Below are positions 4,874 to 34,401 of a stretch of 64,000 nucleotides of DNA, piece after piece. This DNA comes from Alphaproteobacteria bacterium. Lineage in GTDB: Bacteria; Pseudomonadota; Alphaproteobacteria; JANQMY01. The translations under genes were made by a program, and so were the position numbers. Numbering within the stretch: position 1 is the stretch's first letter; each line of letters starts with the position of its first letter. The DNA lies in contig JANQPL010000009.1 in the NCBI GenBank assembly GCA_028289425.1, positions 248,001-312,000 on the forward strand. Direction: 5' to 3'. The notes beneath the pieces are model-generated. The model did not search any database, had not been told where the DNA came from, and saw nothing but the letters and a program-made list of their open reading frames with translations.

Positions 4874-4919
4874 CAAAACTGACCTAACAGTCTATATATA
4901 GACCAATTAGTCAGTTTTG
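4874..4919. promoter_or_regulatory. Nested inverted repeat: candidate TetR operator and promoter before the Rieske gene
   Basis: A perfect 14-base palindrome GTCTATATATAGAC (4890-4903) sits inside longer arms, CAAAACTGACCTAA (4874-4887) and TTAGTCAGTTTTG (4907-4919), which pair with one extra base. A possible promoter overlaps it: TTGCAA (4871-4876), 16 bases, TATATA (4893-4898). The site lies between the amidohydrolase and Rieske genes, and the TetR gene 5878-6453 follows the latter, so autoregulation is the simplest reading. Confidence 0.5.
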
Positions 4920-15733: not shown

Positions 15734-16922
15734 CATACAGTCACAGGAAGGCAAGCCGTTATCAAGCGGTGAGATTTGGGAGAACGCTAAAGCCTTACGC
15801 GACTTTCTCAAATCCAAATCCGACGACATCGAAAACGCACGGCGCCTCACGCCCGAAGTGGTAACCGCGATGAAAGACGCGGGCCTGTTCCGCATGATCA
15901 TGCCCAAAATCTGGGGTGGGCCCGAGCTTTCGTCGATGGAACAGGTGGAAGTTATTGAAGAAATCTCACGTGGCGATGCCTCCGCGGGCTGGTGCTTGAT
16001 GATCGGCTGTGACAGTGGGCTTTACTCGGGCTTCATGGAAGACAGTGTGGCGCGTGAGCTCTACCCGCGGCTTGACATGGTTCAGGCGGGCTGGGTCTAT
16101 CCGGTGGGCCAAGCCCACGAGACGGGAGACGGTTACACCGTCAAAAAAGCCCAGTGGGCATTCTGCAGCGGATCGACACACACGGATCGAATTGCCGCCG
16201 GTTGCATCGTTTTCAAAGACGGCGCACCCAAGCTGAACGAGGCAAGGCTGCCCGAATGGCGCATCATGGTGGCACCGGTGGATCAATGGGAGATCCAAGA
16301 TACCTGGCACACAACCGGATTGTGCGGCACCGCCAGTAATGACTACACAATCAAAGGTGAAGAGATGTTCGTGCCGCGCGAACACAGCTTCACCTTCAAA
16401 GAACCCCATCGCGAGGGCCCCCTGTGGAATGCGCCCGACGCGTTGTTGCGGAAGATGTCCGGCATTCCATTGGGAACGGCCCGGGCGGCCATCGACTTCG
16501 CGACAGACATTCTGAAAGACAAGGTTGAGAAACCTTCCGGCACGCCCTACAAGGCGATCCCCCGCGTCCAAACGGCCGTCGCGGAGGCGGAAATGATGCT
16601 GGGGGCTGCGCGCTCTTACGTCTTTTCATCGCTTGAAACCCAATGGCGCAAGCTGGCGCGCGGAGAGGCCCTGACGGAAAAAGACCGCGCGGATGTGTGG
16701 ATGTCGCGGCTCAACGCCTTCCAAAGCGCTCGATCCGTTGTGCAATTGATTTACGATACCGTCGGCGGCAGCGCGATCTATGCGCAAAAGGGACCGTTCG
16801 ATCGCGCTATGCGCGATACCATGACCATGTGCCAGCACATCGCCGGTCAGCGCAAGGGGGCCGAAGCCGTTGGCGCCTTATTGTTGGGAGATGAGACGAC
16901 CCACAAGATTCAGCTTCTATAA
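15702..16922 (+). CDS. Acyl-CoA dehydrogenase-fold flavin-dependent monooxygenase
   Basis: 406 residues beginning MNVQPKTVSSDIQSQ; the start lies inside the 3' end of the TetR gene. It is a paralogue of the product of 13530-14825: ARRLTPEVVTAMKDAGLFRMIMPKIWGG is the N-terminal helical signature, WHTTGLCGTASNDYTIKGEEMFVP the central barrel, and IYDTVGGSAIYAQKGPFDRAMRDTM the C-terminal group-D monooxygenase signature. A reduced-flavin-dependent hydroxylation of the pathway substrate or a CoA thioester is likely; a dehydrogenase role cannot be excluded. It is 24 bases from the dioxygenase alpha gene, in the same direction. Confidence 0.83.
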   Translation: MNVQPKTVSSDIQSQEGKPLSSGEIWENAKALRDFLKSKSDDIENARRLTPEVVTAMKDAGLFRMIMPKIWGGPELSSMEQVEVIEEISRGDASAGWCLMIGCDSGLYSGFMEDSVARELYPRLDMVQAGWVYPVGQAHETGDGYTVKKAQWAFCSGSTHTDRIAAGCIVFKDGAPKLNEARLPEWRIMVAPVDQWEIQDTWHTTGLCGTASNDYTIKGEEMFVPREHSFTFKEPHREGPLWNAPDALLRKMSGIPLGTARAAIDFATDILKDKVEKPSGTPYKAIPRVQTAVAEAEMMLGAARSYVFSSLETQWRKLARGEALTEKDRADVWMSRLNAFQSARSVVQLIYDTVGGSAIYAQKGPFDRAMRDTMTMCQHIAGQRKGAEAVGALLLGDETTHKIQLL

Positions 16923-24861: not shown

Positions 24862-25644
24862 TCAAGAGTTTGGTGAGGGGTCGCCGTTGGGGGACGCGTG
24901 ACTCAACAGGTAATCGTTCCGGGTCAGCGATGGCCGGCGCCATTCACGGTGCCGCCAATGCTGTACTTGAAAGCCAAGGTCCGCGCTAAGGGCGACAAAG
25001 TCCGCCATCGGGACAAACAGATTGGTCATGGGATAAGTGAGAATGGGCTCCCCCCGCAACACGGGCTTGAGGTAGATCGTGGACATCAACCGCGCAAAAG
25101 CGACAAATCCGTATTCATAGAGTTTCCGGCCAAGATGGCGCAGAACGCCCTTCCCCAATTCGCTCCGAAAGGGCAGTTCGCCCACATAGATTGCACCGTC
25201 AGCTTTGCACACGCGCGCAAGGTCGCGCATCGCCTCGACAATGTGGTCGCGTGTCTCGAACATATGCAGAACCGAGTTGATGACCACGATGTCGAACGTG
25301 TCATCCTCAAACGGAATGGCCGCGGCCGTGCCCACGCGAAACTCCACATTCTCATGATCCTGCAGCAGCGATTCCAATTTGGCGACGGCAGCGGCGCTGG
25401 GATCCACACCGCAGCAGCGGGCAACGCGCGGCGCGAGCAGCCGGAACAAGGTGCCGTCCCCCGGCCCCACATCCAACAGACGGGCATCTGGTGATATCGG
25501 CAACCGCTCCGCTATGTGGGTCATCTTCTTTAGCGTCGCCCGATTGTCGCGGTTGGTCATGAGAGCCGGATCGTCAAAATGAGACGCCCACAGATCATAG
25601 GCTTCTTGGTGATTGCGTGCCGACAGTCTTTTTCGCTCAGCCAT
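24862..25644 (-). CDS. Class I SAM-dependent methyltransferase
   Basis: 260 residues from the ATG at 25644, which overlaps the last codons of the VTT gene by eight bases (ATGGCTGA). Motif I is LLDVGPGDGTLFRLL, followed by GVDPSAAAV (motif II Asp), FEDDTFDIVVINSVLHMFETRD and LARVCKADGAIYVGE. These are standard for the Methyltransf_11/25 group. The acceptor substrate is unknown. The translational overlap with a VTT-domain membrane protein suggests a lipid or membrane-related substrate, as inference only. Confidence 0.87.
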   Translation of the reverse strand: MAERKRLSARNHQEAYDLWASHFDDPALMTNRDNRATLKKMTHIAERLPISPDARLLDVGPGDGTLFRLLAPRVARCCGVDPSAAAVAKLESLLQDHENVEFRVGTAAAIPFEDDTFDIVVINSVLHMFETRDHIVEAMRDLARVCKADGAIYVGELPFRSELGKGVLRHLGRKLYEYGFVAFARLMSTIYLKPVLRGEPILTYPMTNLFVPMADFVALSADLGFQVQHWRHREWRRPSLTRNDYLLSHASPNGDPSPNS

Positions 25645-26188
25645 AGGCCCACACCACGCCCGTCGCAACCGCAGGCACAAAGACCGCCAAAGGTAATGTG
25701 CCGATCGCCGCGCAGATGAGAAAGCGCCCGACGCGAACCCGGCCCACACCCGCCGCCACGCTGACCACATGATTGCCGAAAGGTGCCCATCGCCCGGAAA
25801 CCAGGAAGACTGGATGGTGAAGCGGAAGATCTTGGAGGCGCTTGGGCAGTTTTGAGAACTCCACCTGCGCAATGGCTTCGGAAAATAAGTACCGTGCACT
25901 GACATACTCAATCGCGGACCGGCCCACCAAGGCGACCCAATAGATAAGGACCCCGATCGTGAACCCTTTAAGGGACGCGATGGCCGCGCCCAGCGGCTCG
26001 CTGGGCAGCGGCGGGATCATCAAAATCAAAAACAAAACGAACGCTGCGCCGTCGCCGTATCGGGCCTGAATGGCCTCAACGCCGCCAAAAACCTCGTAGG
26101 CCAACAATAAGATCCAGCAAAACGCCACCAATATGCCGACGGGCAGCAGCCAATTGGCGAAACGACACAATGTTTCGGACGTGACCAT
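25637..26188 (-). CDS. VTT-domain (DedA/TMEM64-like) integral membrane protein
   Basis: 183 residues with about four to five hydrophobic segments. LILMIPPLPSEPLGAAIASLKGFTIGVLIYW resembles the re-entrant loop region of VTT proteins, and FLVSGRWAPFGNHVVSVAAGVGRVRVGRFLI the conserved G-R-x3-G-x3-S-x2-A-G segment. Some DedA/VTT proteins move phospholipids or undecaprenyl phosphate between leaflets; that is known for relatives, not shown here. It is divergent from a TetR gene across a palindrome and overlaps the methyltransferase gene downstream. Confidence 0.78.
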   Translation of the reverse strand: MVTSETLCRFANWLLPVGILVAFCWILLLAYEVFGGVEAIQARYGDGAAFVLFLILMIPPLPSEPLGAAIASLKGFTIGVLIYWVALVGRSAIEYVSARYLFSEAIAQVEFSKLPKRLQDLPLHHPVFLVSGRWAPFGNHVVSVAAGVGRVRVGRFLICAAIGTLPLAVFVPAVATGVVWAYG

Positions 26189-26219
26189 TGGAATGCCGGG
26201 CCCTTTTCACTTGACTAGT

Positions 26220-26243
26220 TATGTAATGATCATTACTTACATA
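26220..26243. promoter_or_regulatory. Nested palindrome: candidate operator between VTT and TetR genes
   Basis: A perfect 14-base palindrome GTAATGATCATTAC (26223-26236) overlaps outer arms TATGTAA (26220-26226) and TTACATA (26237-26243). It lies 14 bases before the TetR ATG (26250) and about 35 before the divergent VTT start, the expected place for an autoregulatory TetR site controlling both. Confidence 0.55.
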
Positions 26244-26249
26244 TACAAG

Positions 26250-26861
26250 ATGAAGATTTCAAGGCCCAATCGCAAAGCCAAAGCCGCGGGACAGCCCAGC
26301 AATCGGGAGCGGATCCTTGCAGCCGCTTCCCAGCTCTTTCAGGAAGCCGGTTATCAAGGCCTAAGCATCTCGTCGATCTGCAAGCGCGTGGGAATTGCGC
26401 CCACCTCTCTTTATTGGCATTTCGGCGACAAGGCGGGCCTGATGCGGGCGGTGGTTGAAAACATCAGCGCAGGCCATACCTCGCGGCTGCAAGAGTTCGT
26501 CAAGGCGGCAGATGGGGGCCCGGCAAAACAGCTTGATCTGATTGTTGACGGTGTCAGGTCGCTGGTGCTGACTCAGCCGTCCGGCGCCCTCTCCTTTGTG
26601 GCCATGCTGGCCCAGGGCGCAACCGACGATGCGGCGCTGAACGAGGCCATGGCAGATGCCCGCCGGCGGGAACTGGATTCAATAGCGGAAGCGTTTGGTG
26701 CCATCCTGGGCGCGGACGAGGGCCGCACGGCGGCGCTCACGCTTCTCGCCAGCGTGAATTATGCGGCATTGGTCTATCGGGTCACACACAGCGAACACGA
26801 TGTGGACGAAATCCTCAGTGCCATGAAGAAAGCGATCTCGGCGCAGGCCGGATTGACTTGA
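26250..26861 (+). CDS. TetR/AcrR family transcriptional regulator
   Basis: 203 residues. The helix-turn-helix is SNRERILAAASQLFQEAGYQGLSISSICKRVGIAPTSLYWHFGDKAGL. The start at 26250 is chosen because earlier in-frame ATGs lie inside the operator-like palindrome. The ligand domain is unremarkable. The adjacent palindrome makes autoregulation and control of the divergent VTT-methyltransferase pair likely. Confidence 0.9.
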   Translation: MKISRPNRKAKAAGQPSNRERILAAASQLFQEAGYQGLSISSICKRVGIAPTSLYWHFGDKAGLMRAVVENISAGHTSRLQEFVKAADGGPAKQLDLIVDGVRSLVLTQPSGALSFVAMLAQGATDDAALNEAMADARRRELDSIAEAFGAILGADEGRTAALTLLASVNYAALVYRVTHSEHDVDEILSAMKKAISAQAGLT

Positions 26862-32279: not shown

Positions 32280-33554
32280 CTATGAACGCTTCGGATGCAC
32301 CACAACGGGAAGGTCCGTAAAGCCCATCACGAAGTTGGAGAAGGTGCGCACCGGCGTGCCCACCACCTCGACACGCTCGAAGCGCTTGAGGATCTCTTCC
32401 CACAGAATGCGCACCTGCATTTCCCCCACACGATTGCCCATGCAGCGGTGGATGCCAAAGCCGAAGGAAAGGTGGCGGCGCGCCCCTTCCCGGTCGATCA
32501 GGAATTCGTTGGGGCGCTCAATCTCGCGCTCGTCCCGATTGCCAGAGATGTACCACATCAAAACGCGGTCGCCCTTCTTGATGGTTTTACCTCCCAGTTC
32601 CACGTCTTCCACGGCGGTGCGGCGCATGTAAGCAAGCGGCGTCTGCCAGCGGATGATTTCCGACACCATGTTCGGAATGATCGATGGATCGGCTTTAAGT
32701 TTCGCAAACTGTTCCGGGTGCTCATGCAAGGCCAGCACGCCCCCCGACATGGAGTTGCGCGTGGTGTCGTTGCCGCCCACGATCAGCAGCATCAAATTGC
32801 CCAACAGATTCATGGGGTCCAGGCTTTTCATATGCTCGTTATGCGCCATCAGCGAGATGAAATCATTCGCAGGCGGAAGAGCGGCACGCTCGGCATAAAG
32901 CGTGCCGAAAACTTCCAAACATTCATAGAGCGCTTCGCGGCGTTGTTCTTCCGTGAGGCCCATGGATTCCAAAACTTCCGGGTTCGCGGTGGTCAGGTCG
33001 GACCAAAAGGTGAGCTTGTAGCGGTCTTCGAACGGGAAATCGAAAAGCGTGGCCAACATTTGGGTGGTGATTTCAATCGACACCAAATCCACCCAGTTGA
33101 ATGTTTCGCCGACAGGCAGACTGTCGAGCACCGTGCCGACCCGCTGACGGATCAGCGGTTCTAATTCTGCAAGAGCGTTAGGGGCAACCGCGGGCGTCAC
33201 TGCTTTGCGCTGCACGTCGTGCTTCGGCGGATCCATGGCAATAAAGGTTTCGGGGTCAAAGTTCTCATCATCGCCATCGGGGCCGTCCACCAAGAAGATG
33301 GAGGGTTCTGACGAAAAAATCTTGTGGTTGGTGTCCACCGCCATGATGTCCGCATAGCGCGTCACGGACCAGAAGCGGCCATATTCTTCGTGATCGAAAA
33401 AGTGCACCGGATCTTCGTTCCGAAGCCGCTCAAACAGCCCCCAATGTTGCTGATTGGAGAAGTAGCTCGGGTTCGACATATCGATGTCTTCGAGCGCGAG
33501 GCTATAGGGGTCAAAAGCGTCCGAGGCGGTTGGTTTCAGGGCAGCCTGACTCAT
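32280..33554 (-). CDS. Cytochrome P450, CYP153-like alkane/fatty-acid omega-hydroxylase
   Basis: 424 residues, from the ATG at 33554 (GGAG upstream). The heme ligand is Cys371 in LSFGFGIHRCMGNRVGEMQ. The I-helix is GGNDTTRNSMSGGVLAL, and the K-helix ExxR lies in EIIRWQTPLAYMRRTAVEDVELGGKTI. The text around the Cys loop, RILWEEILKRFERVEVVG and SNFVMGFTDLPV is highly characteristic of the CYP153 family, which hydroxylates n-alkanes and fatty acids at the terminal carbon with a ferredoxin and reductase. No ferredoxin or reductase gene is in sight. Divergent from a TetR gene through an operator-promoter palindrome. Confidence 0.88.
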   Translation of the reverse strand: MSQAALKPTASDAFDPYSLALEDIDMSNPSYFSNQQHWGLFERLRNEDPVHFFDHEEYGRFWSVTRYADIMAVDTNHKIFSSEPSIFLVDGPDGDDENFDPETFIAMDPPKHDVQRKAVTPAVAPNALAELEPLIRQRVGTVLDSLPVGETFNWVDLVSIEITTQMLATLFDFPFEDRYKLTFWSDLTTANPEVLESMGLTEEQRREALYECLEVFGTLYAERAALPPANDFISLMAHNEHMKSLDPMNLLGNLMLLIVGGNDTTRNSMSGGVLALHEHPEQFAKLKADPSIIPNMVSEIIRWQTPLAYMRRTAVEDVELGGKTIKKGDRVLMWYISGNRDEREIERPNEFLIDREGARRHLSFGFGIHRCMGNRVGEMQVRILWEEILKRFERVEVVGTPVRTFSNFVMGFTDLPVVVHPKRS

Positions 33555-33573: not shown

Positions 33574-33616
33574 TTGACTACAACGATGTTGTAAGTTACA
33601 ACCACGTTGTAGTCAA
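33574..33616. promoter_or_regulatory. Mirror-symmetric divergent promoters with two TACAAC-N3-GTTGTA operators
   Basis: Two palindromes TACAACGATGTTGTA (33579-33593) and TACAACCACGTTGTA (33597-33611) stand 18 bases apart. The outer TTGACT is repeated on both strands. On each strand TTGACT, exactly 17 bases and TACAAC form a promoter: rightward 33574-33579 and 33597-33602, leftward 33616-33611 and 33593-33588. The whole 43-base segment is a dyad between the P450 and TetR genes. Each operator covers the -10 box of one promoter and reaches the last base of the -35 box of the other, so one repressor could shut both genes. Confidence 0.75.
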
Positions 33617-33684: not shown

Positions 33685-34401
33685 ATGGGATCAAACGTCG
33701 TCGGCATGGATCAACGCGCAATCAATATGGAGGCACGGCGCCAGCGGATATTGGATTCGGCTGAGCGGCTGATCATGCGCGACTCCTTAAGCGCCTTCAC
33801 CATGCGGGCGCTGGCCCAGGAAGTCGGCCTAAGCGTGAAGACGCTCTACAATTTGTATGGCGGCGGAAAGGAAGCCATTGCCGCCGTTTTGGAAGACCGC
33901 GCATTCTCGACGCTGGAGGAAGAACTTACGGCATTGCCCGAAGATCAGGATCCGATCGAGCAGGTCCTCACGATCATGACGGTTGCCGCCGAAAAATGCA
34001 TCAAACGCAAAGCCCTTATTCATCCCATGTGGGCCGGCGATAAGGACCGCCCTTTGGGGTCCCCTAGCCGCCCCTTGGAGTTTATGGAATTCGGCGCCGG
34101 CTTGGCGGAGGTTGCGCTGACCCGCGCATTGGACCAGGGCACGCTGGATGCCCGCTTTGACCCTCACCTCTTGGCCTCACAGCTCACGGTCGGATGGTTC
34201 GGCACGGCCATTCTATGGGCGCGCGGCGCGTTGGGCGATGCGGACTTTGTGACCCGCGTTAAGCACACGGGGCTGTGCAACCTTCTTCCCTATGCGGATG
34301 AAAAGCTGGCTCAGTCACTCAAGGAAGAAATCGTTGCGCTTGAAAAGCAGATGACGCCCCTACCCAAGGAAGGCTGCGCCGATCAAAAAGCGTCTGTTTG
34401 A
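33685..34401 (+). CDS. TetR/AcrR family transcriptional regulator of the P450
   Basis: 238 residues from ATG 33685; an ATG at 33655 (no ribosome site) or 33706 is possible. The helix-turn-helix is EARRQRILDSAERLIMRDSLSAFTMRALAQEVGLSVKTLYNLYGGGKEAI. The large C-terminal domain contains HPMWAGDKDRPLG and many helices. It diverges from the CYP153-like gene across the double palindrome at 33574-33616, so it is the probable repressor of both, with the ligand likely an alkane-derived or fatty-acyl compound. Confidence 0.92.
   Translation: MGSNVVGMDQRAINMEARRQRILDSAERLIMRDSLSAFTMRALAQEVGLSVKTLYNLYGGGKEAIAAVLEDRAFSTLEEELTALPEDQDPIEQVLTIMTVAAEKCIKRKALIHPMWAGDKDRPLGSPSRPLEFMEFGAGLAEVALTRALDQGTLDARFDPHLLASQLTVGWFGTAILWARGALGDADFVTRVKHTGLCNLLPYADEKLAQSLKEEIVALEKQMTPLPKEGCADQKASV

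Follow-up and report, generated by a model that had tools for sequence, protein, structure and literature searches.

A candidate twin-operator control region between divergent CYP153 and tetR genes in an alphaproteobacterium

Comparison with described TetR-type systems

TetR-family genes usually diverge from a neighboring gene, and those lying less than 200 bp from a divergent neighbor mostly repress it, as described in PMC3511530. The 64,000-nucleotide stretch of alphaproteobacterial DNA analyzed here (the window) contains such a pair, a CYP153-family cytochrome P450 gene and a TetR-family repressor gene, separated by a 151-bp gap that falls inside the under-200-bp rule given in that paper. 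Within the gap lies the 43-bp segment TTGACTACAACGATGTTGTAAGTTACAACCACGTTGTAGTCAA, read directly from the window sequence at positions 33574–33616 (exact coordinates), in which two operator-like sites are embedded in overlapping divergent promoter elements. We regard this segment, with considerable confidence, as controlling a local divergon of the TetR type, in which the repressor would shut the CYP153 gene and, probably in this lineage, its own gene through the overlapping promoters. The design is a known type of bacterial switch, to which this locus adds a new example.

In the tetR/tetA system of Tn10, two operators lie over overlapping divergent promoters and serve to repress both the repressor's own gene and its neighbor (PMC11686294, citing Bertrand 1983). 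The present locus resembles Tn10 tet in having a TetR-type repressor, divergence from a short gap, and two operators at a fixed spacing, whereas the target is a CYP153 enzyme instead of an efflux pump and the sites are of the form TACAAC-N3-GTTGTA with centers 18 bp apart, kinship being compared at the level of the TetR family only. The operators of Tn10 are spaced about 30 bp apart. Among repressors of oxygenase genes, Bm3R1 and FatR are fatty-acid-displaced TetR-family proteins dedicated to a CYP102 P450 gene, and FatR binds a single genomic target (PMC3814354); the likeness lies in the dedication of a TetR-family repressor to a P450 gene, and the difference in that the genes here diverge and the sites lie within the promoter. 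AlkX of Dietzia, a TetR repressor of alkW1, is affected by C10–C24 fatty acids, and its long operator suggests the binding of a dimer or a dimer pair (PMC8784404); it is likewise a TetR regulator of an alkane hydroxylase, although its target is alkW1 and not CYP153. As presented in that paper, the experimentally studied CYP153 genes are under AraC-type activators, with a TetR repressor given for alkW1 only (PMC8784404). CamR is the repressor of the camDCAB operon of Pseudomonas putida (PMC6352141). The P450 family of that system differs from CYP153. Divergence in the CamR system is from a shared operator. In the open-licence literature, we found no paper on the TetR protein or the operator described here, which is not proof of absence.

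Geometry and uniqueness of the 43-bp segment

Both predicted operators are perfect 15-bp TACAAC-N3-GTTGTA sites and have no strand; operator 1 (CYP-proximal; TACAAC-GAT-GTTGTA) occupies 33579–33593 and operator 2 (TetR-proximal; TACAAC-CAC-GTTGTA) 33597–33611, leaving a gap of 3 bp between them. The string TTGACT-N17-TACAAC occurs exactly on the plus strand at 33574–33602 and on the minus strand at 33616–33588. The candidate CYP153 promoter lies on the minus strand, with its −35 element TTGACT at 33611–33616 and its −10 element TACAAC at 33588–33593 separated by a 17-bp spacer (start expected near 33581), and the candidate tetR-ward promoter lies on the plus strand, with TTGACT at 33574–33579 and TACAAC at 33597–33602 (start expected near 33609). 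Operator 1 covers the CYP-ward −10 element, and operator 2 covers the tetR-ward −10 element together with the last base of the CYP-ward −35 element. A first-pass annotation of this DNA had proposed two identical operators in the segment, a TTGACT-17-TACAAC promoter on each strand sharing the same 43 bases and pointing apart, and the placement of each operator over one −10 element plus the last base of the opposite −35 element, all of which is borne out by the letters.

The near-exact symmetry that the annotation emphasized applies to the hexamers and the sites, which are mirrored; over the whole 43 bp it amounts to 19 of 21 arm positions, with both mismatches falling in spacers, and is not perfect. 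The mirror may be understood as arising from two palindromic operators, the inner half-sites of which would double as −10 elements, together with TTGAC flanks that match. The term 'face-to-face switch' was a misnomer because the candidate promoters point away from each other and no overlap of their transcripts is expected; the promoters stand back to back, sharing 43 bp, with the expected starts about 28 bp apart. The suggested interference between the promoters is thus to be expected in another form, as mutual exclusion of RNA polymerase, which could not be present at both promoters at once because they share 43 bp and point apart, and not as a collision of transcripts.

When the window was shuffled 300 times with dinucleotides preserved, the exact site never appeared. 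The 19/21 mirror was not equaled in 3000 shuffles of the 151-bp intergenic gap, where the best result was 14, or in 20 shuffles of the window, where it was 17. The whole genome (5,417,975 bases) contains no further operator site with 0 or 1 mismatch, and sites with up to 2 mismatches, counted at 66 places versus 109 for a backward control, are not enriched. A wider regulon was rejected at the sequence level on these two counts.

Conservation of operators and promoters among orthologous loci

In a search of 289 genomes, four loci reached at least 50% identity, that of the window among them; one more came from a collection covering 84,980 species, in which a scan gave 5 loci. The five distinct loci are those of the window, G001 (identical to L033 of the larger scan), G092 (identical to L034), G122, and L035, the last from an uncultured Parvularcula. 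CYP153 diverges from tetR in all five, across a gap of 146–151 bp; the CYP153 proteins of the four relatives are 80–94% identical to that of the window, and the TetR proteins of the distant loci 47–50% identical (50% for G122). None of seven neighboring window genes had a match in the compared stretches around the relatives' pair (3.9 kb for L035 and 10.2 kb for L033), so that only the CYP153–tetR pair is shared and the operators go with these two genes. The more remote L036 and L037 (30% and 22% identical) have neither CYP153 nor such a site, a search of 4 genomes of the family of G122 for further orthologs returned only G122 itself, and the 10 plasmid records with matches were all below 60% identity. 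Among roughly 100 CYP153 matches listed, 30 loci were examined, and only 4 orthologous loci have this TetR with the twin sites. Shared control of other CYP153 genes was not found; weak TetR-profile hits at L061 and L055 are not divergent, and in L058 a single 2-mismatch site lies over 1 kb away from the CYP153 gene. In G092, a second P450 gene (6649–7902 of locus L072), 29% identical to CYP153, lies downstream of tetR on the same strand.

Twin sites with the 3-bp gap are present in all five loci, the second site being degenerate in G122 and L035. Operator 1 is perfect in four loci (right half GTTGTA in all five, left half in four) and operator 2 in three (left half in three, right half in four), with one change in G122 and three in L035. 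Among 385 genomes of the class, twin exact sites were found only in the window's genome and G092; the exact pattern misses G001, G122, and L035, where one of the two sites differs by 1–3 bases. In G001, G092, and G122, exact sites are confined to the orthologous locus, and sites with 0 or 1 mismatch, the own locus counted, number 4, 5, and 7 (backward control, 7, 5, and 3); five of those in G122 are single-mismatch sites away from the locus, above its backward control of three. Compared with the window, the half-site bases match at 23/24 in G122 versus 46/108 for the rest of the intergenic sequence (Fisher p 6e-7) and at 21/24 in L035 versus 48/108 for the rest of the gap (p 9e-5), p-values that are only a guide, since Fisher's test treats bases as independent and the five loci make up two clades. 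The corresponding figures for G092 are 24/24 and 64/108, and no such contrast exists between G122 and L035 (22/24 versus 92/108, p 0.3), which is in keeping with their close relationship. The gene pair, the spacing, and the half-site conservation together support the view that the two sites act as operators of this TetR protein.

The constancy of the 3-bp gap in five of five loci might also be explained by a cooperative array, in which four half-sites of alternating orientation at a 9-bp step would receive a pair of dimers, with the 18-bp spacing set by protein contacts and not by promoter geometry. The binding of two TetR-type dimers to a single operator is described for CprB in PMC4150764, which cites QacR as well, and a dimer pair is suspected for AlkX (PMC8784404). 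However, because the −10 element sits in one operator and the −35 element touches the other, the 17-bp promoter spacer alone would equally fix the spacing, and operator 2 has decayed in L035 as if it were not strictly required. Spacing dictated by such contacts appears unlikely to us.

The two promoters have fared differently. All five loci keep TTGACT and TACAAC unchanged in the CYP-ward promoter, whereas the tetR-ward −35 element reads TTGACT, TTGACT, TTGATT, AAAAAT, and AAAACT in the window, G001, G092, G122, and L035, respectively, and the −10 element, in the same order, TACAAC, TACAAC, TACAAC, TGCAAC, and TGTAAC. Of the overlap of operators with promoters in both directions that is a design feature of Tn10 tet, the CYP-ward part is seen in every locus, and the tetR-ward promoter is intact in two, weakened in one, and lost in two. 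By sequence comparison, the flank that forms the tetR-ward −35 element, at the CYP end of the segment, is lineage-specific. The mirror-symmetric promoter pair emphasized by the annotation is therefore not supported as general; the same spacing that it suggested looking for upstream of CYP153/TetR pairs in relatives is found in all five orthologous loci, but the tetR-ward promoter is not kept in all of them. Its proposal that both genes would be shut off together is supported by comparison as regards the CYP153 gene, whose candidate promoter the predicted operators overlie; with the tetR-ward promoter weakened or absent in three of five loci, joint shut-off from this segment may be claimed in close relatives only.

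It is conceivable, although in our view somewhat doubtful, that the operators serve the CYP153 promoter alone. The tetR-ward hexamers would then result incidentally from the symmetry of the operators and from the TTGAC flank, and transcription of tetR would either start at a weaker promoter located elsewhere or proceed at a low, constant level. The constancy of the CYP-ward elements, as opposed to a tetR-ward −35 element altered in three loci and lost in two of these, speaks for this explanation, and the GTCAA flank is kept in all five loci, whereas the TTGAC flank is not. Nevertheless, in the window and G001 the hexamers of the two directions are of equal quality, and the gap of neither yielded a better promoter toward tetR. 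Autoregulation is, moreover, usual in TetR-type divergons.

The decay of the mirror, from 19/21 in the window to 18, 17, 16, and 14 of 21 in the four relatives with no compensation for the lost TTGAC arm, also bears on the idea that the 43-bp palindrome is an RNA hairpin or terminator. The 132 nucleotides from 33574, if wholly transcribed, would fold at −44.4 kcal/mol (z −2.9); however, given the expected starts, the full palindrome would be in neither transcript, and no terminator-like tail was found. A hairpin or terminator was rejected on the absent tail, the expected starts, and the uncompensated arm loss, and we consider it highly improbable.

Several points weigh against our interpretation of the segment as the control region of a divergon. 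Just five loci were found, and they fall into two clades of 3 and 2 loci. The half-sites and the −10 elements are the same bases, so that the conservation of TACAAC is not creditable to one role alone. Since the tetR-ward promoter is gone in G122 and L035, autoregulation through the segment is not general, and a simple scan of the gap in these two loci found no comparable tetR-ward promoter elsewhere. Furthermore, TACAAC lacks the final T of the Escherichia coli −10 consensus and is poor by E. coli rules; a strict E. coli-type scan requiring T at −10 position 6 reports no promoter. The RpoD consensus of Caulobacter, on the other hand, is TTGaCgS for the −35 element and GCtANAWC for the −10 element (PMC8144410), and TACAAC fits the TANAWC core of the latter, which ends in C. 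Scored against this consensus, the CYP-ward elements agree at 5/7 (−35) and 5/7 (−10) scored positions in all five loci, and the tetR-ward elements at 5/7 and 6/7 in the window. Together with an alphaproteobacterial host, in which class the relatives' named records are filed, the fit to the Caulobacter −10 consensus makes TTGACT/TACAAC credible as candidate promoter elements.

Flanking genes, other palindromes, and proposed control

The gene to the left of the segment (32280–33554, minus strand, 424 amino acids), the probable target, is CYP153-like, as the annotation had stated: its product carries the PF00067 domain, and its closest PDB sequence matches include 3rwl CYP153A7 (E 4e-155) and other alkane hydroxylase P450s. 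Its start at 33554 has GGAG upstream. The gene to the right (33706–34401, plus strand, 231 amino acids from the conserved start) is assigned by sequence to the TetR family, having an N-terminal TetR_N helix-turn-helix (PF00440, 29.6 bits versus a cutoff of 24). Its AlphaFold2 model is all-helical (predicted local distance difference test score, pLDDT, 86.4; predicted template modeling score, pTM, 0.80), with Foldseek matches to Thermus thermophilus FadR, EthR (TMq up to 0.66), and KstR. The start of this gene, formerly placed at 33685, is corrected to the ATG at 33706, which is in frame with 33685 and common to the relatives; in frame upstream of it, G122 has no ATG, GTG, or TTG and L035 has TTG only, and G001 and G092 have ATGs.

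A second divergent pair in the window consists of a TetR-like gene identified by eye (26133–26861, plus strand) and a membrane-protein-like gene (25637–26188, minus strand). At 26205–26250, the palindrome GTAATGATCATTAC overlaps TTGACT-N17-TACTTA in the rightward direction and TTGTAT-N17-TACATA in the leftward direction, so that the layout is again an overlapping one, with a single operator. Long imperfect palindromes also lie at 16354–16396 (17/21 arm positions) and 4876–4917 (16/21) of the window. Each of eight further TetR-family genes in the genome is preceded by at least one palindrome of at least 12 bp, a count made with no shuffle control and in some cases due to chance. Upstream of TetR matches in the 27–32% identity range, AAC-N3-GTT palindromes occur in L023 (TTGAACGTCGTTCAA and TTGAACGCGGTTCAA) and L078 (G000:C4:235700-236700; TTTTAACACTGTTAAAA), and some palindromes of this type are twinned; AAC-N3-GTT may reflect an inner half-site common to this branch of TetR proteins. 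In three genomes of genus g43 (L055, L056, and L061), the palindrome TAGGGTATATACCCTA, or one near it, lies about 45–85 bp upstream of CYP153 and probably marks a different CYP153 regulator.

In the proposed mechanism of the divergon, the TetR protein would bind the two 15-bp operators as dimers, and the bound dimers would cover the −10 element, the spacer, and the edge of the −35 element of the CYP153 promoter, switching the gene off. A ligand, probably either a fatty acyl compound or a molecule that the P450 takes as substrate or releases as product, would free the repressor; the choice of substrate-related or fatty acyl compounds is a guess by analogy to AlkX, Bm3R1/FatR, and proteins of the FadR fold. 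In this genome and its near relatives, where the same operators overlie the tetR-ward promoter, the repressor should also limit its own synthesis. More tentatively, the four half-sites at a 9-bp step may form an array doubling as the core promoter, in which the target promoter would be frozen because the repressor half-site and the polymerase −10 element are the same six bases, while the mirrored promoter of the regulator would come and go between lineages; if this is true, the loci represent a natural series of a symmetric switch gaining or losing autoregulation.

As the control region of a local divergon, the segment provides a concrete predicted operator through which a TetR protein would regulate a CYP153 P450 of the alkane-hydroxylase type, and its compact sites could serve as a part for sensing hydrocarbons or fatty acids. 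The five loci constitute a small natural series in which the promoter of the target is constant and that of the regulator is not.
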